Below, in pieces: positions 18,069-64,000 of a stretch of 64,000 bases of DNA. Every line of letters starts with the position of its first letter. Position 1 is the first letter of the stretch. The translations under genes and the position numbers were made by a program. The stretch covers positions 1 through 64,000 of the forward strand of contig BPGB01000008.1 of assembly GCA_026002815.1 (NCBI GenBank), given 5' to 3'. The notes beneath the pieces are model-generated. The model worked only from the letters and a program-made list of their open reading frames with translations, had not been told where the DNA came from and ran no database searches. The stretch comes from Candidatus Woesearchaeota archaeon (lineage in GTDB: Archaea > Nanobdellota > Nanobdellia > Woesearchaeales > UBA9642).

Positions 18069-21000
18069 TTAACTTATTTCAGCATTAAATATTACATATC
18101 CTGTGCACACCCTTGAAATACTTCCGATACTGGGAGTCGGCTTTATTTGCCAATAAGTAACATTATACACCGCTGATGAATTTGTCTGCTTAGGCAAAGA
18201 TAAAGATGTATTTTGTAAAAAACCAGTTAATGGGATTTTAGAAGAGTAGCTGCTTGAAGATAAGGAATACCTAATACTATCTATAGATATATTTGTTCCG
18301 TCAGAACAATTCATTCCAACAGCATCACCTATTGAGATGGCATATCCTTGAATACTAATATTAATAGGCATATTTCCTATGTTGGTAACATTAGCATAGG
18401 CTTCGGAACTTTCAAAACCTGATTCAGTGTCATCAAATGTAATACCATCAGTAATATTCAAAGCATACAATGGTGTAATATTCGTTAAATTAGAATATAC
18501 TGAATAAGCAGACTGATTATTATAAACATTTGTCGTACAATTCCATGTTCCATTATTAGCATAATAATAAACGTTAAAAGAACAAACAAAAGTTTTATTC
18601 ATAGATGTTGTCTCATTCAAAGCGCAAGAATTATTAATGTATCGAACATTATTATCTTCTAAACCATTTGAAGAATTAAGATAATAGTGAAATACCGAAC
18701 TTACAGTATTTACATTATCTGGACCAAAAAAATCCGAAGCAACAACTATACAATAAACTTTTCTAAAAGAACCGGCAGATAAAATTATTTGGTCAATAGG
18801 ATCAACATAATCTTCAATATAAAGGGATGTTACATAAGGAGGTACATAAACAGAAAAATTAATTTTCTGAGAAGAAGTAATAATATTATATTCATCAGTG
18901 CAATTTACACTCCAGTTATAAATTCCTGAAACAAGAACAGCAGAAAGAGTTATATTAGTATTCTGAGGAAGCGGAGAATTATTGGTATTATTAACTATAA
19001 TATCATTAATAATCAATGAGCAATTACTAACATTCCATAATGGATGACTTACATTAAAAGTAAAATTAACATAAGGAATATTAGATAAATAATTTTGAGT
19101 TGGAAAAATCATACCTATATTTATAGGAAAAGTTGTATTAATATTAATACTTCTTGTTCTTGTTCTCTCCACTACACTTGAGGTGTTGCAAATAACATGA
19201 TAGTATTCAGTTCCTGTAAATAATCCTGTTTTATTATAATACCTATTGTTTCCAAAAGAATTCATTGAATAAAGTGTTCCTGACCAATTTAAAACACAAG
19301 TAGCAGTACTTGGATATACAGTCACGTTCACAAAAGAGTATACCCTAGAAATGTTTGCACCATCAGGATCAGTAGGATAAACAAAATTTATTATCAACGA
19401 ATTATTATTTTTTCTTATGAAGTCGAATGAGTATGATTCATAAGTATTTATAGTATCACCAGTAGATAAAGCAGTATCACCATAATTACTAAAAACAGAA
19501 CCATTATAAAAAAAAGAACCAATATTAAAAGAAGCAGAATACCTAAAACCCAATATTTTAGCTACAGGATATTTTAAAATATTTCTATAAAGTGTTATCC
19601 AACCACCACTACCAGCATAAGAACTAAAAGTAGAAGTAGCAGAAGTACAAAGAGGAGAACAAACACGAAGACTCAAAGTAGAACCAGTAGTATCAGTATC
19701 CCAAACCAAAACACCAGAAGAACCATCAGGCAACCAAGAAAAATCAGCACAACGCCTAGTAGAAATATCAACAGCAGCATCAATATTAGAAGTAACAACC
19801 CAAGAATTAGAAGAATCATTATAAAAAGCAGAACCCAAATCATTACCAGAATCAACAAAAACAGCCTGAAAATCAAGAGACAAAGGATTAGACTTCAAAG
19901 ACAACCAACGAACATCATTAGCATCAGCAGCATCAACATCAAAAGAACCAACAACAGACCAAGAACCATTCCAAAAAGCCCAATTAACCAAACCAACAGT
20001 ACCATCAGCACCCAAAACCATAGCCTTAGAACCATTACTATTATAAGAAACAGCCAAAGCCTCATAACCAGAAGTAGCAGTAGCAGAAACAGAAAGACTA
20101 AGCTGAGAACCCCAAACAGAACCATTCCAAACCCAAGCATTAATATCACTACTAGAAGAATCAAAACCAACCAACACCAACTCAGCACTAGAAGACAAAG
20201 GACTAGCATCAACAGAAACCCAAGAATAAGAAATATCAACAGACGCAGTAACATCATCAATAAAAAACTCAGTTGTATCAGAAATATTAGCACTACTTGA
20301 GGGTATGACTCTATATGCTAAATCCTCAACAATGCTTGTACTTGGTATAGCATACACAATAATAGCATTTCCAGTGCTTGATTCAAAATCAAAATCAAAA
20401 CTTCTTTGAGAGGAAGCAGTTATAGATTGTGCAAAATCATTAGAAACAACCCAATTCGAAGAATTAGAACAATTAGAATAACACACATATCCATCTAAAA
20501 AACCATCATCACTTAGAGTCACTAAAATAAGCTTATAATACAATGGACTTGACTTCAAAACTACAAAACGTATTGGAGAACCAGCACTCGGCAATTCAAT
20601 CTCATTACCCCAAGTCCCATTTCCTGAACTATTCCAAAACCTAACCTTAGGATAATTAACACCATTACCAGAAGGAGACCTATAAGCAACAAATCCATCA
20701 GCTATAGGCATATTTACTGTTAAATATCTTGTTTCTGAATAACCATAATTGCCATAAGAATCATTGCAATATACATAATAAGAATAAAACCCATTATACA
20801 ATGGGTATATATCAATATACCAGTTACTATATGAACCATTCATCACATAAACATTTGAAGATAAATCATCAGAAAGATTAAAAAAACAAGAGGATAAGTT
20901 CTCATTTGAAGTTATATTTATAGATAAGTTAAGATCTTCTGATATACTATTATTATAAGGTGTTGGAGCTACAAAAGATATAACTGGAATGGTCGTATCG

Positions 21001-22820: not shown

Positions 22821-23061
22821 TTAAAAGCTTAACTAATTAATATTACCTAGTAACAATATTACCTAGTAATACGAATTAAAATAAAAATACTTAAATAATC
22901 AAAATTAAAATAATAAGGATTATTTTTATATTTTTTGGAATAAAAATATAACATAGAATAAATTAGAAAATAGAATAAATATTAGAAAATAGAATAAATA
23001 AAAAATAATAAAAACTAAATTAATATTCCAATTATATAAGTGTTACTATTAATATAATTCT

Positions 23062-23111
23062 AATATTAATAAGTATAATATTATGGAATATTAATAAGTA
23101 TAATATTATGG
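23062..23111. repeat. Perfect 25-bp tandem duplication spanning a stop codon
   Basis: aatattaataagtataatattatgg twice (23062-23086, 23087-23111); stop of CDS 23106..24038 is in the second copy. Confidence 0.95.
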
Positions 23112-24038
23112 TGCTTCTGCCTGGAATATTATGTATCCAGTACAATTTCCAGCAGGATTAGGAGGCACTCTTAATTGCCAATAAGTTGTATTTACCATAG
23201 GCGTTGAGGGTAAAGTTTGCTTAGGTATGGTTAAATTCGATATTAGTTGTGCAGTACTTGATAGCGGTGTTTTATCAATCCAGTTTCCAGTGTCTACTAT
23301 TGAAAATCTCTCGTATTCAACACTTATATTTCCAAAAATACTGCAATTCATTGCTAAGCCATCTCCTCTTACAGCACCATATCCTTCAACACTAATATTT
23401 ATTGGCATGTTACCGAAATTAGTAACATTTGCTGCTTTTGTCAAAGAATCATCATCTACTGCGACATTACCATAATCTATGCCGTCAGTAACATTAAGAG
23501 CATAAAGAGGATATACATAAGTAGTGTTTGAATTATTTCCTGTTTTATTATATGTATCTATAGCCATTACCGAACAATTCCATGTCCCATTATTGGCATA
23601 ATAATATACTGGAAATATACATAAATAGTTTACTGTATAATTAATGCCATTTCCTGAGTTAATACAATTTGTCGTATAGTGACTGTTGTTATCATCTGGA
23701 GCAAACCTGCTTGATGTAGTAATGTGCCATAATGTTGCATTTACGCCTGTTATATCGCCATATCCATTCCAGTCCCTTATTGTAGCATTACAGGTAATAT
23801 TTCTTAAAGATCCTGCATTAAGTGTTACATTCAACAATGAATTATTTGTTTCTTGATAAACAATAACTTCTAATACTTCTGGATTAGAATTAGAAATAGT
23901 CACTCTAGTAGTAACAGTAACATTTCTGTAATTATCGCCTATAATATTATTTGCATTAGAGAATGAACTAAAGAAAATAGCAAGACTTATAACTAATATA
24001 AAAAATACTAAGTATAATGCCTTTTTTTTATTTAACAT
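23106..24038 (-). CDS. Secreted 'module A' protein
   Basis: Signal peptide then 'NNIIGDNYRNVTVTTRVTI...YYYANNGTWNC...YPLYALNVTDGIDYG...NFGNMPINISVEGYGAVRGDGLAMNCS...NTTYWQL...CTGYIIFQAEAP'; close paralogue of 34927..35853. Confidence 0.7.
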   Translation of the reverse strand: MLNKKKALYLVFFILVISLAIFFSSFSNANNIIGDNYRNVTVTTRVTISNSNPEVLEVIVYQETNNSLLNVTLNAGSLRNITCNATIRDWNGYGDITGVNATLWHITTSSRFAPDDNNSHYTTNCINSGNGINYTVNYLCIFPVYYYANNGTWNCSVMAIDTYNKTGNNSNTTYVYPLYALNVTDGIDYGNVAVDDDSLTKAANVTNFGNMPINISVEGYGAVRGDGLAMNCSIFGNISVEYERFSIVDTGNWIDKTPLSSTAQLISNLTIPKQTLPSTPMVNTTYWQLRVPPNPAGNCTGYIIFQAEAP

Positions 24039-24198
24039 TTTTGCACTTCTTTCTTATGCAATATTTCCTTTTATGCTAATTACTGTGCATGTAAGCAATT
24101 TTAAGTAACATGTTACTGTTCCATATAACAAAACAACCCAGTATATCTTTTAACTATTTTTATCTATTAGTATACATTTTTATATATTAGTATCATAT

Positions 24199-24606: not shown

Positions 24607-26412
24607 ATGAATAGAGGTACTTTTTTAGTCTACAATAAAAAAATATTAAAAATATTAGAAAAAAAAACAATAAAAATAATATTAATACCATTTTTATTAT
24701 TAATTCTCTCAACAATTTTAACAACAAATGCTTATGCACTAGAAAAAGTAATAGCAAATAGTGCAGATTGGAGAGACGTTTACAGCGCGATGCTATATGC
24801 AAGTCTCATAGAAAAACAACCAGGATTATTCTTGACAAGTGCAAAACATAGCACAATACTACTATATTCAATATCAAAAAACACAAATGGAACGCTAATA
24901 GTATCATCAAGAACACAGCCATATATAGTAAATTACAAAAGCGTAATGGACGGTCAAGGATATAAAGATGTAGAAGAATTAGTATCAAACAGAATAAACC
25001 TTGATCTTGCCGAAAGAGTTTTTAGAGAAAAAAACATAAAAAAATACATAATAGTAGATGATGCGTATGGATATAATGCATTATCTGTAGCATCATATGC
25101 TGCTTTAGCAGGATACTATGTACTTTTCGCAAACGAAAGAAATATTGCTCAGGTAGATGCGTTTCTTCAAGATGTAGATCCAACAGAAGTAATATTGTTT
25201 GGACAGGTTGATGAAGCAGTAAAAACAAGACTACAAAAATATAATCCAGAAATAATAAACAAAGGAGACAGGTTTGACAACAACATAGAAATAGTAAAGA
25301 GATATTTAAAAATAAAAAACACACAGCAAACATTAATGAGTAATGGAGAATTCATAGAAGCAAGCATAATGTCCGGACAAGATCCAGTAATATTCATAGG
25401 AAGAACTGCCGTACCCCCACAAGTACAAGAATATATAAAAGAATCAGATTTTAAAGTTGCAGTTCTGATAGGAAACGAACTAATAAATTCTGCAACAACA
25501 ATAAGAAGACAACTAGGAATAAGTGTTTTTGTAAAATTCGCTCAAGGAGCAAGAAATCCCGAAGGAGCAATAGCAGCAGTAGAAGACTTAGATAAATTCC
25601 CTATGCCTAGATATAACCTAAATATGGAATTATTCTCAATAATATATAATAAGGCAACAAACACTTTATGGGTCACATATCACAATTTAGCAAACATAGG
25701 AACATATATAAAAGGAACAATAACATTAAATGTTGACGGACAACAAGTTGTTGTAGGGGATCAAGAACCTATATTTATAGATAAAAATCAATATAAAACA
25801 ATTACCTATGATGCAGTATTAGAAGGAGAAAATATCACTGCACAAATATATACTTTATTCGGGGAAGGAAAAAGAAGCCTAGAAAACGTTCTTCAAGGAA
25901 CAATGAATGTACAAATAGTAGAAATATTAGATAATTCAAAAATAAATATAACTTCTGTCGTTTATGATAAAAATAATAAGCAATTCCTTGTGACAATACA
26001 AAATATCGGAGAGGTAGATGTTTATGTAAATGTTGAATTACTAGACTTATACATAAACGGGGAATTCATAATAATATCTAGTCCAGAAACATTACTTCTA
26101 AAGCCGGGAGAAAAGATAACATTAAAAGTCCCGGCCGAATTAAGTGAGTTAGATATACAAAACAATCCAGTAATAAAAGTTAAGGCATATTACGGAGAGA
26201 GAGAAAATAGTTTGATAAAAACAGCATATGCAGAATTCGCATATAATGAGAAGAGTCCAGATTATATATTCTATATATTAGTACTTCTTGTTATAATATT
26301 AATATTATTACTAGTGTTTGGAAGAAAGAAGTGTCCTCATTGCGGAACAAAAAATTCTAGGACAAGAAAGAGATGCAAAAAGTGCGGACGAAATCTATAC
26401 GAAAAAAAATAA
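24607..26412 (+). CDS. Cell-wall-binding-repeat-2 (CWB2)-like extracellular protein with TM and C-terminal zinc ribbon
   Basis: 'NSADWRDVYSAMLYASLIEKQPGLFLTS...YIIVDDAYGYNALSVASYAALAGYYVLFANE...VDPTEVILFGQVDEAV', TM 'YIFYILVLLVIILILLLVF', then 'CPHCGTKNSRTRKRCKKCGRNLY'. Confidence 0.7.
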   Translation: MNRGTFLVYNKKILKILEKKTIKIILIPFLLLILSTILTTNAYALEKVIANSADWRDVYSAMLYASLIEKQPGLFLTSAKHSTILLYSISKNTNGTLIVSSRTQPYIVNYKSVMDGQGYKDVEELVSNRINLDLAERVFREKNIKKYIIVDDAYGYNALSVASYAALAGYYVLFANERNIAQVDAFLQDVDPTEVILFGQVDEAVKTRLQKYNPEIINKGDRFDNNIEIVKRYLKIKNTQQTLMSNGEFIEASIMSGQDPVIFIGRTAVPPQVQEYIKESDFKVAVLIGNELINSATTIRRQLGISVFVKFAQGARNPEGAIAAVEDLDKFPMPRYNLNMELFSIIYNKATNTLWVTYHNLANIGTYIKGTITLNVDGQQVVVGDQEPIFIDKNQYKTITYDAVLEGENITAQIYTLFGEGKRSLENVLQGTMNVQIVEILDNSKINITSVVYDKNNKQFLVTIQNIGEVDVYVNVELLDLYINGEFIIISSPETLLLKPGEKITLKVPAELSELDIQNNPVIKVKAYYGERENSLIKTAYAEFAYNEKSPDYIFYILVLLVIILILLLVFGRKKCPHCGTKNSRTRKRCKKCGRNLYEKK

Positions 26413-26629: not shown

Positions 26630-29600
26630 TTATTGATTAACCTTCGTTTCTTGATTCAAACTCGATATTTTTTCATGATGAAACTCTAACTGCTTAATAT
26701 TGTTTGCAACATAATTAAGATATTTTAACTCAGAATCAGTGTTAAGGCCAGGTATAAAACCTATATTATAAGCAATATCCCCGTAGTTTTTGTTTAATAA
26801 CTCCTTTATTTCTAAATATTTTTTAAGTCTTTTATAATAAAGATGCCTTCTCGCATTATGTATATACATATAAGCTTCTAGTTTCTTTTTCACATGATTT
26901 AATTTTTTAATATGATTCTCATCGATATAATCATTATAAAAATCTAAGTTAGAAATTAATTTTACTGTTTCATTATATATAGACCTTGCTCTCTCGTAAT
27001 CAAACATATTTATCACTGAATTACAATAATCTATTTTTCTAATAATATCCTCTGGAAGAATATCGTTAAAATTATTATTAGATAAAGTATAATTAGAAGA
27101 GCTATTATTACTTTTTATTGACTCAATATTTGTAATTAATGAATTGGTTGAATTGAAACCTATTTTTACACCTGAAAGATTAGCATTTACAGATGTTCGT
27201 GTATTCCTGTCTGATTTCAAATTGTTATTTGAATTATTTAATTTACTTTGAACACCATTTTCATATATTGTGTTTTTTTTGCTATTCATATTTTCTGTTT
27301 TTATGCTTCTTAAACCAAAAACGCCATTCACAGAATTACTGTTTCTATTCATAGAATTGCTTTTATTAATATTATGAATATTTCTAGAAAAAAACTTTTT
27401 GTCCTGTCTGTCCAACACAATAACGTATCCTCCAAGTAAAACTATCATTATTACTCCAATTATAATTATCCAATGTATTCCAGTTATTTTATTAAATGAA
27501 ATATTTTCAAACGACATCAACCCAGTTATTTTATTTGATTCTTTAAGATTGCTGATTCTAGAATCTGAAATTTTAAAGTTAGGTTTATCCATTATTAGTG
27601 TTTTTGTATTCTTTAAAGACATTAACGAAATTATGCCATCGACTAGGTAATAAATTTCTCCAGACTCAAATGAATCAAAATTCCACTTTACAACAGGATC
27701 TTCCTTAACTATCTCTGGATTTTGTGTTTTTAAATAAACTATTTCAGAAGCCTTATTTATTACCTCCTTCGGTATTTTTTCAACCAATATAACGTTTGAT
27801 AATTTCGATGGAACAATTATTTTTTTATGAATTAAAGTTTTTTTATCATAACTCTCTTGATTTAAATTTCTAATTTTAAAAGAAATTGATTCAACTTTTA
27901 CTAACACATTATCTTGAATCCCCTTATTCTTAATCATATACTCTTCCAATTGTTCTTTTGATATGTTTATGCCTTCAATGATATCCATTACAGAAGACTC
28001 AACATCAGATTCAGTTATTATTTGCTCAAAACTTCCTTGTTCTTGAATTATTATATCATCAACAACATTACCTTGCGCTTTAATTGCCTTTAATTTTAAA
28101 GAATTTAATCTTATTTCCAATTCAGACTTAGATAAATCTTGATTCTTTAAGTCTTCCAATTCAGATATTATGTTTTCAATCTCAGAACGAGAATCTTGAC
28201 TAATTTCTTCAACGTTCAACAATTCAATAATCTTTAATATTGAAGGATCTTTTATCGAAGATAATTTTCTCTCAGCTGAATCAATATCCATTAACATCGT
28301 TTCAAGCAAAGAAATCTTTTCATCTACTAAATAATAAAGTGTTTTGTCAAGAGTTTTAACTACATTATTTTCTTTCTCATCTATTATAGGAATATATATT
28401 TCTACTTCATCGCTGAATGGGCCCTCGTTGCCTGCCTTATCAACTGCAAGAATCTTATACGAATAATGCTTCCCTGCTGAAATATCTTTATCAAGATAAG
28501 ATTCTTTTGAGGTATCTGCAATTAATTCATATTTTTGTGACTCTCCTACTTCTGAACGGTATATCTTAAAAACAGGAGAATCATCATCTCTATAAAGCCA
28601 TGACAATAACACTCCTTTTTCTTCAAGTACTACAGATAATTCTTCTACTTGGGATGGCGGGTCAGTATCTATTAAAAATATCTCTCCATCAGTTATTATA
28701 TCTCCTATTATGCCATTAAAGTCTGTTCCTGAAAATTTGAAAGTAGCAACAGAAGTGCCTATGCCATCTTCTATAACTAGATATCCATTCCAGTTCTTTC
28801 CGCTTCCTGTTAAAGAAATTCTTCTTTTAGTATCATCGTTGTCTAAAATATAATATAAAGAAGGATTATTTTGCACCTCTTTTGATGTTGTCAGTGTTAT
28901 AGAGTATATTCCTTTTTTTAATGGTCCTGATTTATCTATTTTTATAGATGCTGATGGCCTCGTTGAAACTATTACGTTAATTTCATCATATCTTACTAAA
29001 CTGTTGCTTGAAGCACAAGCAACATAAATCCTGTGGCCTCCTTCTGATAAACCATTTATAATTGTTTTATGTATTATATTGTTTGTTACTGTAAACTTGT
29101 CCATTGAAGAAAATAAAGTATCTTTTATTAAAGAATACCTGCATTCTGAATCATAATTTGTTTCAAGAGTAATGCTCACTCCATTATTTGATGTCAAGCT
29201 ATATGTTTTTGACAATATTTCTACTACTTCTGTAACTATGCTAAAAGAAACTGAAGAAGATTTTGTTTCTGTGCTGGTTTCACATGTGATTTCCAAATCA
29301 TGACTCCCATTGTTTAATAGTATATTTTGATAAAAGAATAACGGAGAAATATTAAATGTTGAATTTGATATTAATACCCCTGACTTACCTGAAACATCGT
29401 AGTTACAATTCGTTTCAGTTTCTTGGTTTGTTGAGACAACTATTGATATGTTGCTTGAATTATAAGATGAATTATTTATAGGTGAAAGTATTTGAACGAC
29501 TAATGGAACATCTAATACATTTATAGTAAAATTTTCTATTGCTGAGCTTATATTATCTTTGGCTAAAACGGTATACTCATAAATGCCTGAACTTGAATAA

Positions 29601-29944
29601 TCTGTTTTTTCATAATAATAATTTTTATCACTTATTAAGGATCCTTCAAGGTATATTTCATAAGAAACATTTCCAGTATAATTATTAGCATAAAATGATA
29701 TGTTTATATAATCTGATTCGTTTATTACTGGTTCATAAATTATATTTGATATTACTATTGCACTCGCATGTGGCATAAACATGATATTCAAAATCAATAA
29801 TAATAAAAATGAAAATATCATACTACTTTTTTTTGTTTTATTAAAATACTTTTTCTTCATTTTATTAACATATAAAATTAAATATCTAGAACTAGACCTA
29901 TTAAAAATATATTCACTGTCCCGCATATGATTAACGAACACCAT
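26630..29944 (-). CDS. Large surface protein with Ig/FN3-like ectodomain, one TM and a cytoplasmic helical C-terminal domain
   Basis: FN3-like 'DTDPPSQVEELSVVLEEKGVLLSWLYRDDDSPVFKIYRSEVGE...YSYKILAVDKAGNEG', TM 'IIIIGVIMIVLLGGYVIVLD', Asn/Ser linker, helical tail. Confidence 0.7.
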   Translation of the reverse strand: MVFVNHMRDSEYIFNRSSSRYLILYVNKMKKKYFNKTKKSSMIFSFLLLLILNIMFMPHASAIVISNIIYEPVINESDYINISFYANNYTGNVSYEIYLEGSLISDKNYYYEKTDYSSSGIYEYTVLAKDNISSAIENFTINVLDVPLVVQILSPINNSSYNSSNISIVVSTNQETETNCNYDVSGKSGVLISNSTFNISPLFFYQNILLNNGSHDLEITCETSTETKSSSVSFSIVTEVVEILSKTYSLTSNNGVSITLETNYDSECRYSLIKDTLFSSMDKFTVTNNIIHKTIINGLSEGGHRIYVACASSNSLVRYDEINVIVSTRPSASIKIDKSGPLKKGIYSITLTTSKEVQNNPSLYYILDNDDTKRRISLTGSGKNWNGYLVIEDGIGTSVATFKFSGTDFNGIIGDIITDGEIFLIDTDPPSQVEELSVVLEEKGVLLSWLYRDDDSPVFKIYRSEVGESQKYELIADTSKESYLDKDISAGKHYSYKILAVDKAGNEGPFSDEVEIYIPIIDEKENNVVKTLDKTLYYLVDEKISLLETMLMDIDSAERKLSSIKDPSILKIIELLNVEEISQDSRSEIENIISELEDLKNQDLSKSELEIRLNSLKLKAIKAQGNVVDDIIIQEQGSFEQIITESDVESSVMDIIEGINISKEQLEEYMIKNKGIQDNVLVKVESISFKIRNLNQESYDKKTLIHKKIIVPSKLSNVILVEKIPKEVINKASEIVYLKTQNPEIVKEDPVVKWNFDSFESGEIYYLVDGIISLMSLKNTKTLIMDKPNFKISDSRISNLKESNKITGLMSFENISFNKITGIHWIIIIGVIMIVLLGGYVIVLDRQDKKFFSRNIHNINKSNSMNRNSNSVNGVFGLRSIKTENMNSKKNTIYENGVQSKLNNSNNNLKSDRNTRTSVNANLSGVKIGFNSTNSLITNIESIKSNNSSSNYTLSNNNFNDILPEDIIRKIDYCNSVINMFDYERARSIYNETVKLISNLDFYNDYIDENHIKKLNHVKKKLEAYMYIHNARRHLYYKRLKKYLEIKELLNKNYGDIAYNIGFIPGLNTDSELKYLNYVANNIKQLEFHHEKISSLNQETKVNQ

Positions 29945-30163: not shown

Positions 30164-30177
30164 TTTAATCCATAAAA

Positions 30178-37673: not shown

Positions 37674-37674
37674 T

Positions 37675-53400: not shown

Positions 53401-54065
53401 TCATTATATATTAACTCTAGATTTAATGAAAAATTGTTGTTCAAACCCTTTTTTGAAGGATCATGTTCTAAAGAATTATTAACTGAATAATTATTAGAAT
53501 AATTATTGTACGTATAATCACTTGATGAAAATTGACCTGAAGAGATGTAATAATCAGAGATATCTATTAATATAGTATCTCCTATATAATGCTTCTTGCA
53601 AGATTCATTTTTATTTATGTTATTTGCATAAACGAAAAAACTCTTCTCAGAAACTTTAACTCCATCATAGTATAATGTTATTAAATAATTGCTTGATTTA
53701 TCTGGATAAAAGAATACTTCCTTATCTATAATTCCAATATATTTATAAGAAAATTGTTCATCTGACAATGAGATATCCATATTTAATTTTGACCTATCAA
53801 AATTCTCTATTGCGCTATTGCTACCATAAACATCTATTTCTATACGTATCAAATCTGAAACAAAATAAAAAGGTTTATCTAATAATATTTCAAAGTTCAA
53901 ATCATCATATGACAAACCATTATTGTTATCATAATCAACAATATAGGATTGCGCGATAACTATTGATGATTCTATAAAAGCTAAAAATAATATAAAAATA
54001 AAACTATTAATAAATCTTTTATTATATATTTCACCTTCTTTTTTTGAAAAATTTTTTGCTTTCAT
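50403..54065 (-). CDS. N-terminal part of a giant surface protein: signal peptide, Asn-rich linker, beta-propeller-like region, Ig-like domains
   Basis: 'FINSFIFILFLAFIESSIVIAQS' signal, poly-Asn linker, repeats such as 'IDVDLLAIDNNTVVIAWIS', 'SDIDVCQLGDRFVVVYANG', 'GQVAATGLRNNRTAIVFYD'. Confidence 0.75.
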   Translation of the reverse strand: MKAKNFSKKEGEIYNKRFINSFIFILFLAFIESSIVIAQSYIVDYDNNNGLSYDDLNFEILLDKPFYFVSDLIRIEIDVYGSNSAIENFDRSKLNMDISLSDEQFSYKYIGIIDKEVFFYPDKSSNYLITLYYDGVKVSEKSFFVYANNINKNESCKKHYIGDTILIDISDYYISSGQFSSSDYTYNNYSNNYSVNNSLEHDPSKKGLNNNFSLNLELIYNDAVSIKKYYYKTSGEKIVNWNPQNIGNYLLYINGDYFECYDIYEYSNDTIYSNDTIIGYKRNTEIDESSINVTINSSDKNNNVNITINADINNDINKDFNNMVYKEVPSVLENNIYNSNYENYSINYSKYYSSVIKVLDSNGKDLDIKMKVLYSRKNLKNKLINNENIINNEVINNNSNQSNNQNTRITNQNNHNSINLDYKNQSVNYGSNYYNEYDAYSNSYNLTNNLTNISNSTSTNNLINIIPENLINNSNNNSNNNLEDNLTNSTFILEDFSPGQIVSPNDIKNNEIYDIDVELINHPIKKIKISGYRHIQKNNTINNNNPYNNNPDSSNPNNNYSNTPLEIGVDTLEISKKYLENKNQIKAYAINLYDMEFDNASFTAIAEGKELWKCKDWNFTAQECFGTWELYMNLTPGQEYSVELYPGDPGFVEAFDSNESIDVDLLAIDNNTVVIAWISAATGFPLKIKIMDTNGSVIVNDITIDSTGSSGSRVALAPIDSNNFIIASFDGPSQANYFYIYNRTGDAVIGQTSVDPFVGTNSDIDVCQLGDRFVVVYANGDSADLDADFRIFNNTGTIITGETAADTSMTPELTNQNLVSCAVINPLRWLYAWYDAGASDDITVRVFSETGTSIVGQTDLDANVGNFGQVAATGLRNNRTAIVFYDYVDNDITLTVRQLNGATLSTVLAVTDIDTNAGTSSRVAIQEIDMKTQSYFVVAWRDTSDSTIKAGIYNETGIQVVAPFTITTTPSSTNFILDLAGYSSNINLGLCNGTWAIAYSNSSGSTVWETYYYNGSRWDGICPDVSPPIINLTYPLNNSIVENINYTLNYTVNDNRDTILINCSLFANFSGTFTLNQTFFNISSGNNYFNISNLNDGQYLWNVQCYDNSSNSAFAPSNFTYMQNYYTPNISSYAINVSIINQSHSIRFNATITDSWNISQSYIKLFYPNSSSINITLNRSGSEFYTIFNDTIQLGIYNITLISANDTLGQRSNLSINVLF

Positions 54066-54123: not shown

Positions 54124-54155
54124 GCCTCACCTATTTCAAACCTCCCCTATTTCAA
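54124..54155. repeat. 16-bp tandem duplication (14/16) spanning a stop codon
   Basis: gcctcacctatttcaa / acctcccctatttcaa; stop of CDS 54147.. lies inside. Confidence 0.85.
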
Positions 54156-57100
54156 TTCCGCATATAATGCTACGGCATTCATTCCTGATTTATATTCTCT
54201 TAATTTTGCAGGAATCCTTAATTCGAAATCATATGTTCCATTATAACCAGTGGTGTTCATATTTATTTTAGTTATGAACACTACATCCTGACTCGCATTA
54301 AATTCTGCACCCCCATCTCCTGAATCCCATAATATCCCAGTTATAAAATTACTATTATTAGTGCTGTTCAATACTGGAACATTAAGTATTTGCCTATTGA
54401 AAACAGTTATGTTTCTCAACTCCTTAGGCAATCCTGATATTGTATATGTTCTGTTTATACTATCGCTATTATTATTCATTCCTAAAGCAAGGTCTAAATT
54501 ATAAAAATCATCTACAACATATTCTCCTGTAGCGTTTCTTGATAAGGCTGTGAGATTAAACCAATTAATATTACTGTCTAAATCTGCAGCAAAAACATTT
54601 CCTCCAGTAGCATTGTCTACTGTCCAATCAAATATCGTCTTATAAGATGGATCTTGAACAGCGAGTTTACCAGTTTGATAACCCAATATGTACTGCCAGC
54701 TTCCAACAGTTATTGTTTTTGAAGCATTATTGTTTGACTCATTTGACTCATATACTGTTCCATTACTGCTTAATGGAACGTCTGCAAGAACATAGAACAC
54801 ATTATCTCCTATAGGCAATGTATGAACTATTGATACATTTCTCGATTCATTGATAGTTAGACTCATATTAAAACTTCCTAATAATAATCCAGTCATACTT
54901 CCAAGTCTTATTTCTACTGTAAAATTATTCGCATCATTCAATCCTATGTTTTTTATTTCAGCAGTTATATTTATAGTATCATTTTCTATTGGTGAAGAAA
55001 TATTTGAATAAATCAATGAACTATCAACATAAATATCTGGAAGAACAACAAAAAACCTATATGTTTCACTAGTATTTAAATTACCGGCAATATCTATACA
55101 TGTTACATTCCAATAATGATATCCTCCTAAAAGATTATTAATAGTAATATTTGTTAAGGTATTATTTGAAATATTAAAATTAGCAATTACTAAATTATCT
55201 AATGTGACTGAACAGTTCAAATAATTTGCAAGATTATCAAAAGGCGTAAAATTCAACTCCACTGATGTTGAAGTTAAATTAGTATCATTAATTGGACTAA
55301 TCAACAATATTGTCGGTTTTATTGTATCAATATACATTGTTATTCCTGTGCTGTTCTTCTTATTTCCTGAAATATCAGTAGCTTCTAAAACAATATTATA
55401 ACTGCCGTCAGGTATTGATGAAATAGTTATGTTTGATAAAGTATTATTTTGTATTGTGCCATTAACATTGCTTATCCCATTAACATATAATGTATAATTA
55501 ATGAACTGCGCCATATTGTCAGTTATATTGACGTTTATTAAGGGGGTTGTTGTATTAAACCAACTATTATTTTCAGTCAATATGTAAGGTTCTGGTGATA
55601 AGGTATCAACGAATAATCTCCTGTAAGATGTTATATTATAAGTATTATATGAAGTGTTATCATAACATTCTATTTGCCAATCATATATTCCTGAAGACAT
55701 ATAATTTATAGTGAAATTATTCAATGCATTATTTGTTAATTCATAATTATATTTTGTTTGATTAATTACACCATTTATTATTATTGAACAATTCTCTAAT
55801 CCAGTGTCATCGCTTACATTATATATGAAAGTGTTATTCTCAAACCTGCTCCATGTATTATTTTCAGGACTAATCAAGGTTATTTTCGGAGGTATAAAAA
55901 TAGCGAATGATCTTGTTTCGCTAATATTGTAATTAAATGCTTGATCCCTGCAAGTAATATTCCAGTAATGAGTTCCTTCAGACATATTTGTTACTGTATA
56001 ATTTTGAGGTATGCCAATCGATGCATTAAATCCTGTAACATTAATATTATCTATAGTAAGATTACATATTGCATAGCTTGCAAGATTGTCATATACGGTG
56101 AAATTAAAATACACGCTTGTTGAAGTAAAGTTTTGTCCATTAGCAGGATAATCTAAAAATATATATGGCGCTGTGGTGTCAACATAAATTGTTTTTGTTG
56201 TGCTGTTTGCAGTATTATTCAAATCATCAGAAGCTTCTAAAGTAATATTATATATTCCATCTGTTAAACTTGGTAGAATTATTATTTTGCTTGTGCCATT
56301 AGTAATATTTCCCACATCTGAAACAGTATTATTAATATACAGCCTGTAATCAATCAATAAATCAATATTGTCTGTAGCTGAAATATTTATTGATGGAGTA
56401 CTTGTATTAAACCATGTTCCATTAGGAGTATTTATTACTGGCTGTGGAGGAGTGTAATCTATTGTTATATAAATACTTGTGCTGTTCTTTCTTCTTCCTA
56501 GATAATCTTGGGCTTCAACATTTATTTTCTTTATACCTTGAGTTAAATTGATATTAACTATTGTTGAAATATTGTCTGTTGTTGTTCCAGTAACGTTTAG
56601 AGAATTATCTATGAATATGGAATAATTTATTTGATTTCCAGTATAATCAAGTAATGTGAAATTGATAGAAATATTACTATAATTAAACATAGTATTATTT
56701 AATGGATAATTTATTATCGACTGTAAAATGCTTATGTTCTTTGTTGCATTATTATTTGACTCATTAAGCTCACTTATTAAATTGTATGGATCAACATATA
56801 CATGCACTATATGATAGCCAGTAGTTATGTTCCAAAGGGTCCAGAATATTACTGATGAATTAGTATTGACTGTTGCAGTATAATTTCCTATAAATGTTCC
56901 AATCCCAATTGGACCATCCCAGAATTCCACAAGCACATTGTTTGCTGGCACTCCACCAATATTAGAAACATTTGCAGTTATGTTTATTGTTTCATTAACA
57001 TTTGGATTGGTGTTATTGAAAAATATTCTATAATCATCTATATATAAGTCTGGCTGGTTAATGGTGAAATATCTTGTTTGTGTAGTGTTGCTATTGTTTA

Positions 57101-60100
57101 AATCATCATAACATGTGACACTCCAATTATGTGGTCCATCTGTTAAATTATAAACAGTAATATTGAATGATGCACCGCTTGTTTTTACTGTATAATTTCT
57201 GAATATTTCATCTACATATAATGAACAATTAATGCTCGTACCATTATAATCTGTTGCAGTCCAATTAAAGAATACATCATTCATATTAAGGAATTCTCCC
57301 TCTAAAGGCCTATCTAATTCTATAATTGGTGGGTACAAGTCTATGTAAAATATTCTTAATTCTGAATATCCTAAATTGCCTGATGGGTCATAACATTGTA
57401 TACTCCAATTATGATATCCTGGAGCAATATTGCTTATTGTAAAGTTTCTCTGTACTCCTGAATTTGATAATGTGTTATTTGTCTGATTCAATGAATCATC
57501 AATGAATATGCTGCAATTACTTATATTTCCTGAATTGTCTGTTGGAGTATAATAAAATGTTATATTCTGATTTTTTGTCCTAGTATTATTTAAAGGATTG
57601 CCTAATGATATATAAGGCGCTTCTTGGACTGTGAAATTTTTTGTACTGCTAACTCCAGAATTGCCTGCATCGTCAATACATGTGACATTCCAATACAATA
57701 ATCCATCAGTTATTCCTGAATATGTCGCATTAACTACGGTATTATTTGATGAACTTACTGGTGATTTTATTGAGCCATTTATATTTACACTACATGACAT
57801 TAAAGTATCATAATTATCTGTTGCTGACCAGTTGAAGAATACTGTACTGTTTGACAACAATTGCCCGTCAGGATAATAAGTGGTTACTGTTGGAGCTATA
57901 GTATCTATTATAAATGTCCTTGTCTCGCTTATATTATTCTTACCAACACTGTCAGTACAATTTATATACCAAGTATATGTTCCTGAAGTGAATCCCGTCT
58001 CAACAAATGTATCCTGAACCCCTGATGTCAATGCTACATGAGTGGATTGTATTGCATTATTTATATATAAGTCACAGAATCCTAAATCAAAATCCGCCGG
58101 ACTATTAGGTATATATGTAAAGTTAATATTTCCAGTATTTGTACTATAATTGTCAGCAGGACTTAAAAGCACAATATTTACATTAGAATTTATAGAAAAA
58201 TTATATGTTTCAGAAACTCCTATGAATCCAGCATTGTCTATACAAGAGATAATCCAAGTATGATTCGTAACAGATAATCCATTAACATATACCGATGCTA
58301 TAGAGTTGCTGCTAACATTAAAGTTTGTCTTATTCAATACACCATCAATAGTTAAATTACAAACAAGCACATCATCAATGTCTGTAGTGTTGAAAGTGAA
58401 ATTAACGTTTCTAGTATAAATGGTCTGATTATCGTAAGGATATATCAATTGTATATAAGGGATATCATTATCTAAGTAGAAAGTCCATTCTTCTGATGTG
58501 CCGTTAAAATTATTTGTATCAAAACATATTATTGACCAATTATAAATTCCGTAATTCATATTTGTAAGTGTAAAATTATTCAATCCATCATTCTGCTTAT
58601 ACGGTATGTTTGGAGAATAAACTGTTTGATTATAATTGTTGTTGAGTATTAATGAACAATTATCCACATTAACTGAAGATAAATAATAATACAGAGTAAT
58701 ATTTGTGCTATTAACGCCGTAACCATCAAAAGGATTGTCTAATGTAATTATTGGTATTGTTTCTGTTGTAAAATTAAGTGTTGCACTAGTTGCATTATTA
58801 CCGGCATTATCCCAACAAGTAATATTCCAATAATGAAGTCCATCTGTTATGTTTGATATATTTATAGTTCCTAAACCTGTGGCATTAAATAATTGGCTGG
58901 TTGAGTCAACAGTAATATTACACAATAATAATGTATCATAATTATCGGTGACATTGTATGTAAATGATACCGTTCCAGAAGGTCTTAGCGTATCATTAGG
59001 CTCAAGAGCATAAACTATTGGAGGAGTATCATCAATAATTAATGTATAAGTTGATGTGTTTGTATATGAGCCTAAAGTATCATAACAGTTTATAAACCAG
59101 TAATATATTCCTTCATTTAAATATACATAAAACGTATTTACTGAAGATTCGTTTATTGTTGTGTTAGTCTGATTTAAATTGCTGTTTATGTATAAAGAAC
59201 AATTTTGAACGTCATTAGCATAATCTACTGCTGTATAGTTGAAGGATATTATATTACTTCTTAATGTTGTAAGATTCGAAGGATATAATATGGTTATTAC
59301 AGGACCAAAGTTGTCAGCAATTATCTCAAACCAATCATAACCCCATCCTGCACGATAATTGCTTGATGGCGGCATTGCATAAGCTACAACACTATAATTG
59401 CCGTAAATTCTTCCTAAAGTATTGAATGATTCATTATATGCGCCTGAGGAATTAGTTGTTCCAGAAGTAATATTTATTAGTATTTGATGAACACCAGTAG
59501 TTGCTGAAATATTATTTAAAGAATAATATCCTGTTATGTTGAAATCATCAAAACCCCCATCCTCGGTTGCTACATTAACCGTTGACCTAAATCTTATATT
59601 AAAACCATTAACCCTATAAGAATTATTTAATGATAATACAACTGATTGAGTTATTGCTCCAACACCACCATTCAATACAGACACCTGCGACCATGATGAT
59701 CCACTATTGTTTGTTATATCATAAGCTAAGTAATCTAATGGGGCAGCATCCCATGTTCCATCAATACCCCAAGTAAATGAAATATTTACTATATCATATC
59801 TTGAAAAGTCAATAGTGCTTAGCAAAGAATTTGATAATCTTATTGTTGCATCTGTAACCACGCCATCAATATGCGCGTGATTTCCTGTTAATGGATCGCC
59901 TGTAGATATATCCCAACCTGTATCGGCTGTCCAATTAGAAGTTAATGTATTAAATGCATCATAAAATAATGGTTCCTGAACAATATTTCCTGATATACTT
60001 ATTGAATTATTGAAATATGTTGCATTAGGATTACCATAATATACATGATAATTGTTTTCATTTACTGCATTTGCTGAAACATCACCTATGAAGTATATTG

Positions 60101-63100
60101 TACAAAAAGTTACATCATCACCAATTATTACTCCTGATTCAACAACCGATAAATTAATGTCAGAAACAACTCTTAATTCCCTACAATCAGTAATGCTACC
60201 ATAAGGTAAAGTAACATTAACTAAAATGGCTTTATTTGTTCTTTGCGAATTATTGCTATAATTTATATATATAGGTTTCCTATAAATCCAGCTTGAATTC
60301 CACCAAGGAACATCAGAATAAGTATTATTAGTAAATATATAAGATAAGGTTATATTAGTGCTTAATCCTCCAAAGGTTTCATTTCTTGTTGTAACATTAA
60401 CTAATACATGTTCTCCCTCTTGATACTGTATTTTATCTGTTATAACAGTAACATTTACAGGGAAAGTTACATTAACAGTAAAATTCCAAGTTATAGAGGT
60501 ATTGCTGTTATATCCTAAATCTATGCAAGTAACATTCCAATAATGAAATCCATTAGTTACTGTTTGAGACCTTGTAGTTATTGTTCCATTATAAACTGTA
60601 AAATTAGCATTTCCTGGACTTACAATATCATCTATTGCAATACTACAAGTGGCATTCGGAGAATAATTATCTATAAAAGTGAAATTAAAATAAACAGGAG
60701 TAGTGTTAAATACAATATTATTAGGATAAAGCAGTGTTATTGATGGTTTTGTCCTGTCAGAAATAATAATCCAAGTTGAAGAGCTTCCAGGATATCCAGT
60801 AGTATCATAACATGTAACGCTCCAATTATATGTTCCTTCCTCAAAATTGCTCACATAAAAAGTATTATTTGCACTATTCACTATTGTAGTGTTTGTTTGA
60901 TTTAGATTATTGTTTATGTATAAAGAACAATTCTGAACACCATTACCGTCTTGAACAAAATATTTAAATGTGACATTAGAGCCGTTGCCAATAAAACCAT
61001 TAAAAGGTGATTGAAGCAATACTAATGGTCCTCCTATAACCTGGAATAATCTTGTTTCTGAAGTATTAGCATTGCCTGCATCATCCCAACAAGTTACATT
61101 CCACTGCTTATATCCATCAAGCAATGGAACAGCTTTAGAAGTTAATGTATTATTCAATGATGGAATATTGGCTGATTCAACTATCGAATTAACTGTTATA
61201 TTACATGTAAGATTAGAATCAATATTATCTATTACAGTATAATTCAATATAGGTGTTGTTCCATTAAATATTGTTCCAGAAGAGATGTTAAGATAAACTT
61301 CTGGAGGCGTTATATCATAAGTGAAGTTTCTATTCTGAGAGAATCCTCTTAATCCAAAAGAATCATAACAGCTTATATTCCAAAAGTGCAATCCTTGATA
61401 GAGATTATTGAATGTTATATTATTTACTATACTCCTATTAACATTATATAATGTAGTGTTTAATGTTCCATCTAAGAATAATGAACAATTTACTATTGGA
61501 TGAGCATCAGTGACTGTGAAATTCAATTCTAAAGGAATATTTCTGGTAAATGCACCATTGTTCGGATAATTTAATGTTATTGATGGAGCTGTTATGTCAG
61601 AATCAAAAATCCATGTCTGAGAAGTGTTCCTATTTCCTGCATTATCAATACATGTAACATTCCAATAATGTGTTCCATCGCTTATTGAAGTAATATTTCT
61701 GCTTGTTATCTCTCCATGCGTAGAATAAACATTTGAGGCCTTTACAATATTATCTATAGTGACATTACATAAAAGCACTTCATAAATCAAGTCTGTTACA
61801 TTCCAAGAGAACAATGCATAATTCGCAGTAATGTTTGTATTATTTGAAGGACTAATGAGATTAATACTTGGCTTGGTATTATCTACGTATACATATACCG
61901 AGGTATTTCTACGATTATTGAGCGTATCATTGCATAATACTGTTAGATTATAAAATCCATCATTTATGCTGGAAATATCGCTAATATTGAAGTAATAAGT
62001 GCTTGTAGTGTAACTCATTAATGTTAAATTACCAACTTGTGAAGTGCCATTATAGAATGTCCATTCACATAATCCTATGCCATCATCATCATATGCTGAT
62101 GCGTTTACAGAAACATTTTGGGAAATCAAAGGAATATTTTCTACAGTAACATCAATATAATCAGTATTAATATCTGCTCTTGCATTAGCACCTGTTCCTA
62201 TCGCAAAGCTTCCTTCTATTAAAACATATAATTGCCTGTTTCTTATGAAATCATTAAAGCCTGAAGTCAATGTAACTTCACTTATGACATCCACACTACT
62301 TGCGAAAACAGTTTTTTGCAAAACATAAGTATCAGAACTCCAATTATAAACATAAATATAGAATGAACTAGGAGATAATCCTGTTCCCTGAGTTGCATAT
62401 CCCTCATGTGTTATTTTTAATGATTTCATACTTATTGTGGAATCTGGAATAGAAAAGTTAAAGCTTTGATATGCATACCTTCCAGTAGGTGTTCCAGATA
62501 TTGTGGTGGAATATCTTGAATCATCGCTTGAAGAAATTTTTACATATGCTGAAGAAGAAAATTCATTTCCAGTTATAGGTGCAATAGCACTTCCAGGAGG
62601 TTGCGAAGTTGTCCCATTATCCCATGCAATACTAGTAGTGCTCGGATTTACTATTCCACTATAATTATGTGTTCTTATAGTATTTGATGGTGTTATTATT
62701 GTTATTTCTGGTTGTGGTGGAGGATTCCTAAACCAATCAAAAGTCATCCATCCCCTAGCAGCAGTGGCACCGTTTGTTTCGAATACAGTAGCGGAATTAC
62801 ATCCTGAACCATCCCATGAAGTGCCTGTCCATAATGAACAACCACCATCTCTAGCAGAATCGGTATATACTAAAAACACTTTATTAGATGCAGGATTAGC
62901 AACTAAGTATGCACTTCTTAACTGGCCTGCACCATTCGCAACAATTTGTGTTCCTGAACTCCAGCTTGGATTTGAGAAAGTACTTGAACTAACAGTATAG
63001 CTTCCTGATGTTAAATAAGTCTGACCATTATTAACCCATACAAATAATGCCTTAGCACCATCATCCTCCCATACACATTGAAAATTTAATGAATACTCAG

Positions 63101-64000
63101 TTGTACCTTTATTAGAACCACCACATTCCGCATTAACATTCTGCGCTGGGCTTGCTGCATGAGTAGTCTTTAATAATGAAGTACCATTCCAAATAGTTCC
63201 ATCTAAATCATTATTTACATCGCAAAACATCACTCCGGCAAGAGAATGATTAAATCCACTGTATGATTCTTGGCCGCATGCAGATATTTCACTTATTTCT
63301 CCACTGGTATTAAAAATTCTTCCTAAAGATGTCCATGTTGTACCATTAAATTTATCTGCGAGCAATGCATTGAGTGTATTATTTGAATAGAAGCATATGA
63401 AATCATTGCCGCTCCATGCACAATCAAAATGCCTATAGAATGTTCTTGAAGAGGTTTCTGCTGATTGACCATTAGTGGTTAAAACTCTCCAATTAGTAAA
63501 AGCGGTCCCATTCCAAATTCCTGCAAATATTCCAGGAGTTGCCGCATTTGTACCACCACCATTATTCTGTAATGCTATACCTATAATATTGCTTCCTTTT
63601 TTAGGATATAAGTGTATCCAATCATATTCATAATTTTCTCCACCAGTAACAGAAACAGCGGTTTCTGAACTTAATGAAGTGCCATTCCATATACGATACA
63701 TGAATTGTGTATTCGCTCCAGTGTTGTTTTCATAAACTAATAAGCATCTTCCAGATAATGACTCGCAATCAACATCCATAGCAGGCAAATCAAGGCTAGG
63801 TTGTGTTGCTAATACAGTGTTTCCACTCCAAGTCCAATTATCTGTGTAGAATATTGCAAAATTAACATCATTGCCATTATCCTTAACAATTAATAAACAT
63901 TGTGGATAATCGCGCATGCATCTAAACTTCATCCAAGAAATCCTATCACCCATATTAACACCTGAAGAAACTTCGCCTTGAAGCAATGTTCCAGTCCAAT
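54147..64000 (-). CDS. Giant (more than 3279 aa, 5'-truncated by window edge) adhesin-like protein: beta-propeller-like N region, many Ig-like repeats, DUF2341, CARDB, C-terminal module-B-like domain
   Basis: Frame stays open to the window edge (...WTGTLLQGEVSSG). Repeats of about 90 aa with 'W.(V/I)(T/N)C.D..GN...S.(T/S)..F'; DUF2341 'WWNSSWIYRKPIYIN'; CARDB 'PDLYIDDYRIFFNNTNPNVNETINITANVSNIGG'; C-term 'YDFELRIPAKLREYKSGMNAVALYAELK'. Confidence 0.85.
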   Translation of the reverse strand, partial: WTGTLLQGEVSSGVNMGDRISWMKFRCMRDYPQCLLIVKDNGNDVNFAIFYTDNWTWSGNTVLATQPSLDLPAMDVDCESLSGRCLLVYENNTGANTQFMYRIWNGTSLSSETAVSVTGGENYEYDWIHLYPKKGSNIIGIALQNNGGGTNAATPGIFAGIWNGTAFTNWRVLTTNGQSAETSSRTFYRHFDCAWSGNDFICFYSNNTLNALLADKFNGTTWTSLGRIFNTSGEISEISACGQESYSGFNHSLAGVMFCDVNNDLDGTIWNGTSLLKTTHAASPAQNVNAECGGSNKGTTEYSLNFQCVWEDDGAKALFVWVNNGQTYLTSGSYTVSSSTFSNPSWSSGTQIVANGAGQLRSAYLVANPASNKVFLVYTDSARDGGCSLWTGTSWDGSGCNSATVFETNGATAARGWMTFDWFRNPPPQPEITIITPSNTIRTHNYSGIVNPSTTSIAWDNGTTSQPPGSAIAPITGNEFSSSAYVKISSSDDSRYSTTISGTPTGRYAYQSFNFSIPDSTISMKSLKITHEGYATQGTGLSPSSFYIYVYNWSSDTYVLQKTVFASSVDVISEVTLTSGFNDFIRNRQLYVLIEGSFAIGTGANARADINTDYIDVTVENIPLISQNVSVNASAYDDDGIGLCEWTFYNGTSQVGNLTLMSYTTSTYYFNISDISSINDGFYNLTVLCNDTLNNRRNTSVYVYVDNTKPSINLISPSNNTNITANYALFSWNVTDLIYEVLLCNVTIDNIVKASNVYSTHGEITSRNITSISDGTHYWNVTCIDNAGNRNTSQTWIFDSDITAPSITLNYPNNGAFTRNIPLELNFTVTDAHPIVNCSLFLDGTLNTTLYNVNRSIVNNITFNNLYQGLHFWNISCYDSFGLRGFSQNRNFTYDITPPEVYLNISSGTIFNGTTPILNYTVIDNIDSNLTCNITVNSIVESANIPSLNNTLTSKAVPLLDGYKQWNVTCWDDAGNANTSETRLFQVIGGPLVLLQSPFNGFIGNGSNVTFKYFVQDGNGVQNCSLYINNNLNQTNTTIVNSANNTFYVSNFEEGTYNWSVTCYDTTGYPGSSSTWIIISDRTKPSITLLYPNNIVFNTTPVYFNFTFIDNYSPNATCSIAIDDIVSPGNANFTVYNGTITTRSQTVTNGFHYWNVTCIDLGYNSNTSITWNFTVNVTFPVNVTVITDKIQYQEGEHVLVNVTTRNETFGGLSTNITLSYIFTNNTYSDVPWWNSSWIYRKPIYINYSNNSQRTNKAILVNVTLPYGSITDCRELRVVSDINLSVVESGVIIGDDVTFCTIYFIGDVSANAVNENNYHVYYGNPNATYFNNSISISGNIVQEPLFYDAFNTLTSNWTADTGWDISTGDPLTGNHAHIDGVVTDATIRLSNSLLSTIDFSRYDIVNISFTWGIDGTWDAAPLDYLAYDITNNSGSSWSQVSVLNGGVGAITQSVVLSLNNSYRVNGFNIRFRSTVNVATEDGGFDDFNITGYYSLNNISATTGVHQILINITSGTTNSSGAYNESFNTLGRIYGNYSVVAYAMPPSSNYRAGWGYDWFEIIADNFGPVITILYPSNLTTLRSNIISFNYTAVDYANDVQNCSLYINSNLNQTNTTINESSVNTFYVYLNEGIYYWFINCYDTLGSYTNTSTYTLIIDDTPPIVYALEPNDTLRPSGTVSFTYNVTDNYDTLLLCNITVDSTSQLFNATGLGTINISNITDGLHYWNITCWDNAGNNATSATLNFTTETIPIITLDNPFDGYGVNSTNITLYYYLSSVNVDNCSLILNNNYNQTVYSPNIPYKQNDGLNNFTLTNMNYGIYNWSIICFDTNNFNGTSEEWTFYLDNDIPYIQLIYPYDNQTIYTRNVNFTFNTTDIDDVLVCNLTIDGVLNKTNFNVSSNSIASVYVNGLSVTNHTWIISCIDNAGFIGVSETYNFSINSNVNIVLLSPADNYSTNTGNINFTYIPNSPADFDLGFCDLYINNAIQSTHVALTSGVQDTFVETGFTSGTYTWYINCTDSVGKNNISETRTFIIDTIAPTVTTYYPDGQLLSNSTVFFNWSATDNYDTLMSCSVNINGSIKSPVSSSNNTVVNATYSGITDGLLYWNVTCIDDAGNSGVSSTKNFTVQEAPYISLGNPLNNTRTKNQNITFYYTPTDNSGNISNCSIFIDDSLNQTNNTLSNSGVQRNFTISNIAPGYHNWSIQCYDPSGNLGYSELRIFYIDLYPPIIELDRPLEGEFLNMNDVFFNWTATDYNGTSINCSLYVDEIFRNYTVKTSGASFNITVYNLTDGPHNWSVTCYDDLNNSNTTQTRYFTINQPDLYIDDYRIFFNNTNPNVNETINITANVSNIGGVPANNVLVEFWDGPIGIGTFIGNYTATVNTNSSVIFWTLWNITTGYHIVHVYVDPYNLISELNESNNNATKNISILQSIINYPLNNTMFNYSNISINFTLLDYTGNQINYSIFIDNSLNVTGTTTDNISTIVNINLTQGIKKINVEAQDYLGRRKNSTSIYITIDYTPPQPVINTPNGTWFNTSTPSINISATDNIDLLIDYRLYINNTVSDVGNITNGTSKIIILPSLTDGIYNITLEASDDLNNTANSTTKTIYVDTTAPYIFLDYPANGQNFTSTSVYFNFTVYDNLASYAICNLTIDNINVTGFNASIGIPQNYTVTNMSEGTHYWNITCRDQAFNYNISETRSFAIFIPPKITLISPENNTWSRFENNTFIYNVSDDTGLENCSIIINGVINQTKYNYELTNNALNNFTINYMSSGIYDWQIECYDNTSYNTYNITSYRRLFVDTLSPEPYILTENNSWFNTTTPLINVNITDNMAQFINYTLYVNGISNVNGTIQNNTLSNITISSIPDGSYNIVLEATDISGNKKNSTGITMYIDTIKPTILLISPINDTNLTSTSVELNFTPFDNLANYLNCSVTLDNLVIANFNISNNTLTNITINNLLGGYHYWNVTCIDIAGNLNTSETYRFFVVLPDIYVDSSLIYSNISSPIENDTINITAEIKNIGLNDANNFTVEIRLGSMTGLLLGSFNMSLTINESRNVSIVHTLPIGDNVFYVLADVPLSSNGTVYESNESNNNASKTITVGSWQYILGYQTGKLAVQDPSYKTIFDWTVDNATGGNVFAADLDSNINWFNLTALSRNATGEYVVDDFYNLDLALGMNNNSDSINRTYTISGLPKELRNITVFNRQILNVPVLNSTNNSNFITGILWDSGDGGAEFNASQDVVFITKINMNTTGYNGTYDFELRIPAKLREYKSGMNAVALYAELK

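Follow-up and report, generated by a model that had tools for sequence, protein, structure and literature searches.

Archaeal threads polymerise through an N-terminal donor strand, and their putative cap lacks one half of this interaction (PMC9715654). TasA provides a published precedent for the donor-strand polymerisation principle (PMC9674648). In addition, S-layers of DPANN archaea have been seen by cryo-ET (PMC11329633), and cultivated DPANN archaea are described as host-attached. A central open question is by what means these archaea recognise and hold other cells and exchange material with them.

A stretch of 64,000 nucleotides (the window; bases 1–64000 of the 74,164-base contig C8) from a 1.70-Mb archaeal MAG was analysed. 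The minus strand of the window matches, gene for gene, the stereotyped order of a collinear ~54-kb cluster on a single contig of the complete same-genus relative G001 (C2, ~123.6–178 kb, plus strand), and literature searches found no description of this cluster. One domain, B, occurs there in three protein classes: small Sec-secreted subunits, the C-termini of giant proteins and the ectodomain of a HerA-type ATPase. As a system, the cluster matches none of the known kinds compared with; its working principle may be the already known donor-strand one. We call it new because no chaperone or usher and no TasA/camelysin, thread or S-layer signature was found, the B fold is an orphan, and a HerA ATPase is fused to a subunit domain. 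Close to half of the relatives sampled have the cluster, its concrete genes can be named (Table 1), and the base, shaft and tip hypothesis presented below carries a sequence signature for each part.

Domain families A and B

The sequence-only reading of the window had proposed that two small secreted protein families, A and B, reappear as C-terminal domains of giants in an archaeal DPANN locus. All ORFs that it named are present in the window at their positions, and the kinship was borne out for both families. The HMM built from the window's five stand-alone B sequences aligned end to end with the C-terminus of the 54147 giant (E = 6.5e-13) and also matched the C-terminus of 45216..48881 (E = 1.9e-5); when the HMM was widened with relatives, these values became 7.7e-28 and 1.9e-15, and both matches reached the last 0–1 residue. 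Furthermore, the HMM–HMM comparison, set beforehand as a possible refutation, found a relationship between 119 stand-alone B sequences and 18 giant C-termini (hhalign probability 99.1%, E = 9.8e-19, 164 columns), and the alignment takes in the terminal Y-x-E-(L/I) strand. Chance similarity of the C-termini was thus ruled out by both methods. The same logic held for A, whose HMM matched the C-terminus of 18069..22820 alone among nine surface proteins of the window (E = 1e-50; 3.4e-75 after widening). With relatives added, all three giant C-terminal matches end 0–3 residues from the C-terminus. The guess of a DPANN source was also right: the window comes from a Woesearchaeota-type archaeon, and the 76 named module B loci come from Woesearchaeota, Pacearchaeota, 'Nanoarchaeota/Nanoarchaeia', other DPANN or misplaced archaeal MAGs. 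The restriction of B to small secreted proteins and giants did not stand, as B is also N-terminal on a HerA ATPase. The regulators paired with B genes had likewise gone unnoticed in that reading.

Module B was detected in 66 of 145 relatives, usually with 3–9 copies or matches each, and in 82 of 371 members of a phylum-wide sample, comprising 72 of the same order, 10 of the same class and none beyond. Module A was detected in 39 of the 145 relatives, and 36 of the 39 also carry B (Fisher p = 1.5e-12). A and B as one family was ruled out, since a profile comparison gave only a spurious match of 21 columns. No relatives of either module were found in Pfam, NCBIfam or PDB sequences, and Pfam searches with 50 A and 119 B members yielded no family beyond single chance matches. 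A viral origin of B was rejected as well, given no B relative on viral contigs and no structural match among viral protein models.

In a tree of 244 B modules, the C-terminal modules of giants form one clade with a local support of 100, suggesting that the tip-type class is ancient. Recurrence in ~28 large ORFs as a single clade also argues that the C-terminal B is not a chance motif. Stand-alone modules cluster by locus position (61 label changes vs. 161.6 after shuffling), indicating that the array consists of distinct, long-lived subunit types, not recent copies. The B proteins of 36015 and 40792 (76% identical) look, from their sequences, homogenised within the source genome.

An N-terminal hydrophobic segment is present in 201 of 202 stand-alone B proteins, and a later one in almost none. 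Judged from the alignment, this stretch ends in a conserved Ala followed by x-Pro-x-Gly, like a signal peptidase I site; type IV pilins and archaellins, for comparison, have a class III signal peptide and keep their hydrophobic N-terminal helix. Sequon density was 2.3 times that of shuffled sequences in B and 2.9 times in A, pointing to heavy N-glycosylation. The segment ahead of the core is ungapped across the 202 aligned stand-alone B proteins, with Gly in 200 of them and then hydrophobic residues in 100%, 100% and 99% at alternating sites. This extension motif was found in 240 of 283 stand-alone B modules vs. 1 of 28 giants (p = 7.5e-19), where B begins directly after a CARDB domain; 6 of 6 TM-anchored B modules have it. 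Module A has the pre-core motif N-x-T-V-x-T-x-V-N-I-T at ~3 bits per site; A-type giants do not regularly lack the segment ahead of A, and the attachment of A to the giant is less clean than that of B. Direct coupling analysis of extension against core gave couplings dominated by subfamily structure.

The AlphaFold2 model of mature B (40795–41439, 119-sequence alignment) has a pLDDT of 91.5 and a pTM of 0.86, with mixed beta structure and two short helices. Residues 1–43 contain no strand, and pLDDT is 65–70 over residues 21–40 vs. ~95 in the core. Foldseek gave no match of this model in the PDB (best E 0.74) or among viral models (best 0.35), and the modelled fold is not recognisable as an Ig or pilin fold; domain B is a confidently predicted fold without a PDB match. 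The model of mature A (34930–35775, 50-sequence alignment; pLDDT 95) consists of two Ig-like beta-sandwiches, and its first 24 residues have no strand. The 50 PDB matches listed by Foldseek for A include the two-Ig-domain proteins RbmA (6e-6), CsuE (3.7e-5), FimH (5e-5) and CfaE-CfaB, as well as antibodies and transglutaminases; the best TM-score among these 50, and the only one close to fold level, was that of the archaic pilus tip adhesin CsuE (0.43/0.42). As modelled, the likeness of A to CsuE and FimH is a resemblance of fold type, not membership. The pre-core segments of B and A are strongly conserved and strand-like and find no partner strand in the monomer models, as would be expected of a donor strand. 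By analogy, we infer that an extension present in stand-alone B and absent in giants is the FimA/FimH relation in outline. The extension could also pack in cis, or bind membrane, S-layer or glycans.

The gene cluster and its HerA-type ATPase

Across the 76 loci, the gene order is giant-B, DUF5752, B, B, (A), HTH then B, ArsR then B, B, A, and finally membrane and surface proteins (Table 1). The HTH–B pair was observed in 39 cases with a median overlap of 11 b, the ArsR–B pair 34 times and B–A adjacency 45 times. Coupling of an ArsR-type and a sigma-70 region-4-like HTH regulator to one B gene each in dozens of genomes suggests autoregulation or switching of subunit types. A DUF5752-like protein is conserved between the giant and the B array; a full-text literature search found no paper on DUF5752. 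Repeated domains of this type (motif N-D-F-x-x-W-I) were also noticed in several cluster proteins and at HerA-B C-termini (window 42999–44345; L001 4259–10162, equal to C8 68259–74162), and the cytoplasmic DUF5752-like domain may serve for docking within the system.

Table 1. Features of the cluster (positions in the window unless a contig is given)
Coordinates	Strand	Feature	Basis or occurrence
16270..17586	-	Conserved surface protein, C-terminal TM, end of cluster	13 loci
18069..22820	-	Giant ending in module A (~290 aa, residues 1292-1580 of 1583)	HMM 3.4e-75
23106..24038	-	Second stand-alone A, 310 aa	A family
24607..26412	+	Conserved membrane protein, large ectodomain, C-terminal zinc ribbon	32 loci
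26630..29944	-	Conserved large surface protein, TM and cytoplasmic tail	Collinear in G001 and G003
31978..33792	-	Conserved membrane protein after 33809..34456	Pair 23 times; four TM-like segments
33809..34456	-	Conserved secreted or anchored protein, no family	24 loci; no Pfam match
34927..35853	-	Stand-alone A, 308 aa, two predicted Ig-like sandwiches	A family, AlphaFold2 pLDDT 95
36015..36791	-	Stand-alone B before A, 258 aa, 76% identical to 40792..41511	B family, tree
36939..37688	-	Stand-alone B, ArsR-coupled class, 249 aa	B family, tree
37675..38274	-	ArsR-type regulator, overlaps the B gene downstream of it	Pfam HTH_5 1.2e-6
38972..39811	-	Stand-alone B, HTH-coupled class, 279 aa	B family, tree
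39789..40367	-	Sigma-70 region-4-like/HTH_38 regulator, overlaps start of next B gene	Pfam Sigma70_r4_2 1.8e-11
40792..41511	-	Stand-alone B, 'second of pair' class, 239 aa	B family, tree, AlphaFold2 pLDDT 91.5
41788..42558	-	Stand-alone B, 'first of pair' class, 256 aa, signal peptide	B family; tree class with ArsR-coupled B
42999..44345	-	Cytoplasmic protein, C-terminal DUF5752-like domain	PF19027 1.9e-4, just under cut-off; 54 loci
45216..54065	-	Second B-type giant, frameshift-broken	Several-frame Ig-like coding; intact counterpart in G001
50403..54065; 50045..50416; short ones; 45216..48881	-	Pieces of the 45216..54065 giant: first N-terminal with signal peptide, last with CARDB and C-terminal B	
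54147..63998	-	C-terminal 3283 aa of ~4288-aa giant	Pfam Big_13 1.7e-27, CARDB 7.2e-13; B 7.7e-28
C8 72567-74162 and 71660-72580	Same as giants	B-HerA copy of source genome, N-terminus missing, frameshifted	Contig edge, past window
G001:C4:35289-37220; G076:C2:302639-304891; G028:C41:61000-62802		HerA domains in very long frames	

The 54147 giant consists of Ig (Big_13) domains, CARDB and then module B at the extreme C-terminus (~54147..54740), and it runs 1005 aa past the window (L001, contig C8 64001–67016). The ORF 45216..48881 had been taken for a giant of its own; it proved to be a fragment and has no signal peptide. Consecutive Ig-like coding spans several reading frames at 48.9–50.4 kb, and G001 has one intact 2817-aa giant at the matching position (C2 143903–152356), indicating that 45216..54065 is a single frameshift-interrupted giant. 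The frameshifts at 48900–50420 and in the HerA-B gene (L001 8500–8600) may be assembly errors, the genes being intact in relatives.

Several further features of the window were noted. By eye, the 18069–22820 giant has two repeat blocks of ~440 aa (starting ADGFVAYRSPSGNGVNYP) that are almost the same and look like a recent duplication within the protein. The zinc-ribbon protein at 24607–26412 shows, over one stretch, a weak likeness to the archaellum stator ArlF (E 4e-4, well short of the cut-off). Outside the cluster, ORF 873–1532 resembles a SET-domain protein by eye, with the eukaryote-type methyltransferase motif NHSCDPNC in an archaeon. At 3063–6161, a D-Ala-D-Ala-ligase-like ORF adjoins two related acyltransferase-like ORFs, also by eye; cell-wall-like amino-acid ligation is a possible role of these genes.

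The third class of B proteins comprises a TM segment, B with the extension motif, CarboxypepD_reg-like domains, a second TM segment and a cytoplasmic HerA/DUF87 ATPase (loci L062, L111, L114, L127 and L128, with L106 truncated). DUF87 matches reached 7.8e-12 (L001, Nbig class, 8528–10162) and 3.6e-10 (L127). Both Walker A and Walker B are intact, with GATGxGKS and VFDEVHR conserved, and HerA proteins are the nearest solved sequences of the ATPase domain. Among the 145 genomes, 35 have TM-B and HerA parts in a single open frame, and 33 of these 35 have at least three B matches (p = 1e-19, a value that overstates independence because related genomes have common ancestry). In at least 13 of them, B-HerA and the B array lie on one contig within ~80 kb; 13 genomes have at least three B matches without the fused ATPase, some owing to incomplete assembly. 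In the source genome, the B-HerA copy lies upstream of the giants. A literature search for HerA in DPANN surface structures returned nothing relevant. As a separate observation, other giant proteins, with open frames of ~8,000–15,800 aa, also contain HerA domains that are related to that of B-HerA.

A proposed fibre and its alternatives

We propose that stand-alone B and A would be the repeating shaft subunits of a fibre, each both donor and acceptor, with the conserved N-terminal strand of one subunit lent to its neighbour in a donor-strand-like manner. The giants, with an acceptor-type core without the N-terminal strand, would sit at the distal tip as adhesins. Membrane-anchored B-HerA, which has both strand and anchor, would form the base and couple cytoplasmic ATP hydrolysis to assembly or activity, and the pairing of B genes with HTH and ArsR regulators would give the cell a switch between subunit types. 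This fibre and tip reading gains support from the conserved extension of stand-alone B, which giants lack, and from CsuE, a tip adhesin, giving the best listed TM-score for A. In our judgement, the chances are evenly balanced that the cluster is a conserved apparatus for surface fibres and adhesion in Woesearchaeales and in some DPANN archaea related at class level, with donor-strand polymerisation as its putative mechanism. The HerA link is not accounted for by the donor-strand model alone, as known donor-strand fibres need no cytoplasmic ATPase. More tentatively, the cluster might be an undescribed DPANN envelope machine, in which a membrane-spanning HerA-family ATPase shows a fibre-subunit domain on the outside. 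This ATPase would nucleate, build or drive a B and A assembly, either fibre or conduit, that ends in adhesins of several thousand residues and is used for host attachment or exchange.

In giants that are unrelated in other respects, B sits at the very C-terminal end, straight after CARDB, a place where retention domains are often found. B could be a generic surface attachment or docking domain, with stand-alone B and giants as separate proteins that are held by one shared partner (the S-layer, a glycan or the ectodomain of HerA-B) and form no fibre; HerA-B could then serve as a membrane receptor. We consider this rather unlikely, as stand-alone B proteins contain little besides B itself and occupy several conserved paralogue positions per locus, and docking leaves unexplained the conserved extension that is found only outside giants.

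A two-dimensional surface layer built of B and A, with the giants as embedded adhesins, would agree with the secreted glycoprotein features, the many sequons and the several paralogues, and DPANN S-layers are visible by cryo-ET (PMC11329633). The distribution of B (66 of 145 relatives; 82 of the 371 phylum-sample members) is nevertheless patchy for an essential coat, and the per-gene regulators suggest conditional expression, making such a lattice improbable. Equally doubtful is a delivery or DNA/protein transfer machine, in which the HerA-type ATPase would pump substrate through the envelope and B and A would form an external conduit or contact organ. The FtsK–HerA superfamily includes DNA and protein pumps, and the ATPase here, nearest to HerA structures by sequence and with intact Walker motifs, spans the membrane with B outside; host attachment of cultivated DPANN archaea would suit such a role. 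However, none of the genes of the collinear cluster was identified as one for a relaxase, a pore or an effector, and with Sec-type signals a pump is not needed for subunit export. Replacement of type IV pili is not supported, since PF00437-type ATPases match in 145 of 145 genomes.

Comparison with known surface systems

The proposed fibre can be set beside chaperone-usher pili (FimH/FimA, CsuE/CsuA). They share repeating subunits with an N-terminal strand extension and a large adhesin whose subunit-type C-terminal domain lacks it, and CsuE has the best TM-score for A among the listed matches. In contrast to these pili, the cluster is archaeal, its B fold is unrelated, its giants measure 600–4300 aa and it has a membrane HerA ATPase; neither the conserved neighbours nor the cluster proteins scanned with Pfam included a recognisable chaperone or usher. 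Pilin domains of these pili are incomplete Ig-like folds with an acceptor groove; of the two modules, A is modelled as Ig-like, with CsuE and FimH among its matches at a TM-score of 0.43 at best, and B matched no fold. The archaeal thread (Saci_0406/Saci_0405) likewise has Sec-exported, sequon-rich subunits with a conserved N-terminal strand and a putative terminal subunit without one half of the interaction (PMC9715654). The thread is crenarchaeal, whereas the cluster here is a multi-subunit locus with an ATPase and giants, and profile searches of all PDB sequences gave no homology to Saci_0406.

TasA/camelysin and AbpA bundling pili resemble the cluster in having secreted beta-rich subunits with an N-terminal strand that could be donated (PMC9674648). 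The sequence-only reading had drawn an analogy to TasA-like donor-strand fibres and proposed a search against these families; A and B gave no match to them in Pfam or in PDB sequences, and none stood among the listed Foldseek matches. Unlike an S-layer protein, B is far from near-universal in its lineage (66/145; 82/371).

Type IV pili and archaella are also archaeal surface filaments with an ATPase, but the ATPase of the cluster is HerA-type. Moreover, PF00437-type ATPases occur in all 145 genomes with or without B, indicating that the B cluster is an additional system. Finally, the ATPase shares with HerA helicases/translocases the DUF87/HerA domain with its Walker motifs and has HerA as its nearest solved sequences, and differs from them in being fused to two TM segments, CarboxypepD_reg and an extracellular B. 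Such a fusion would link the HerA ATPase family to surface structures.
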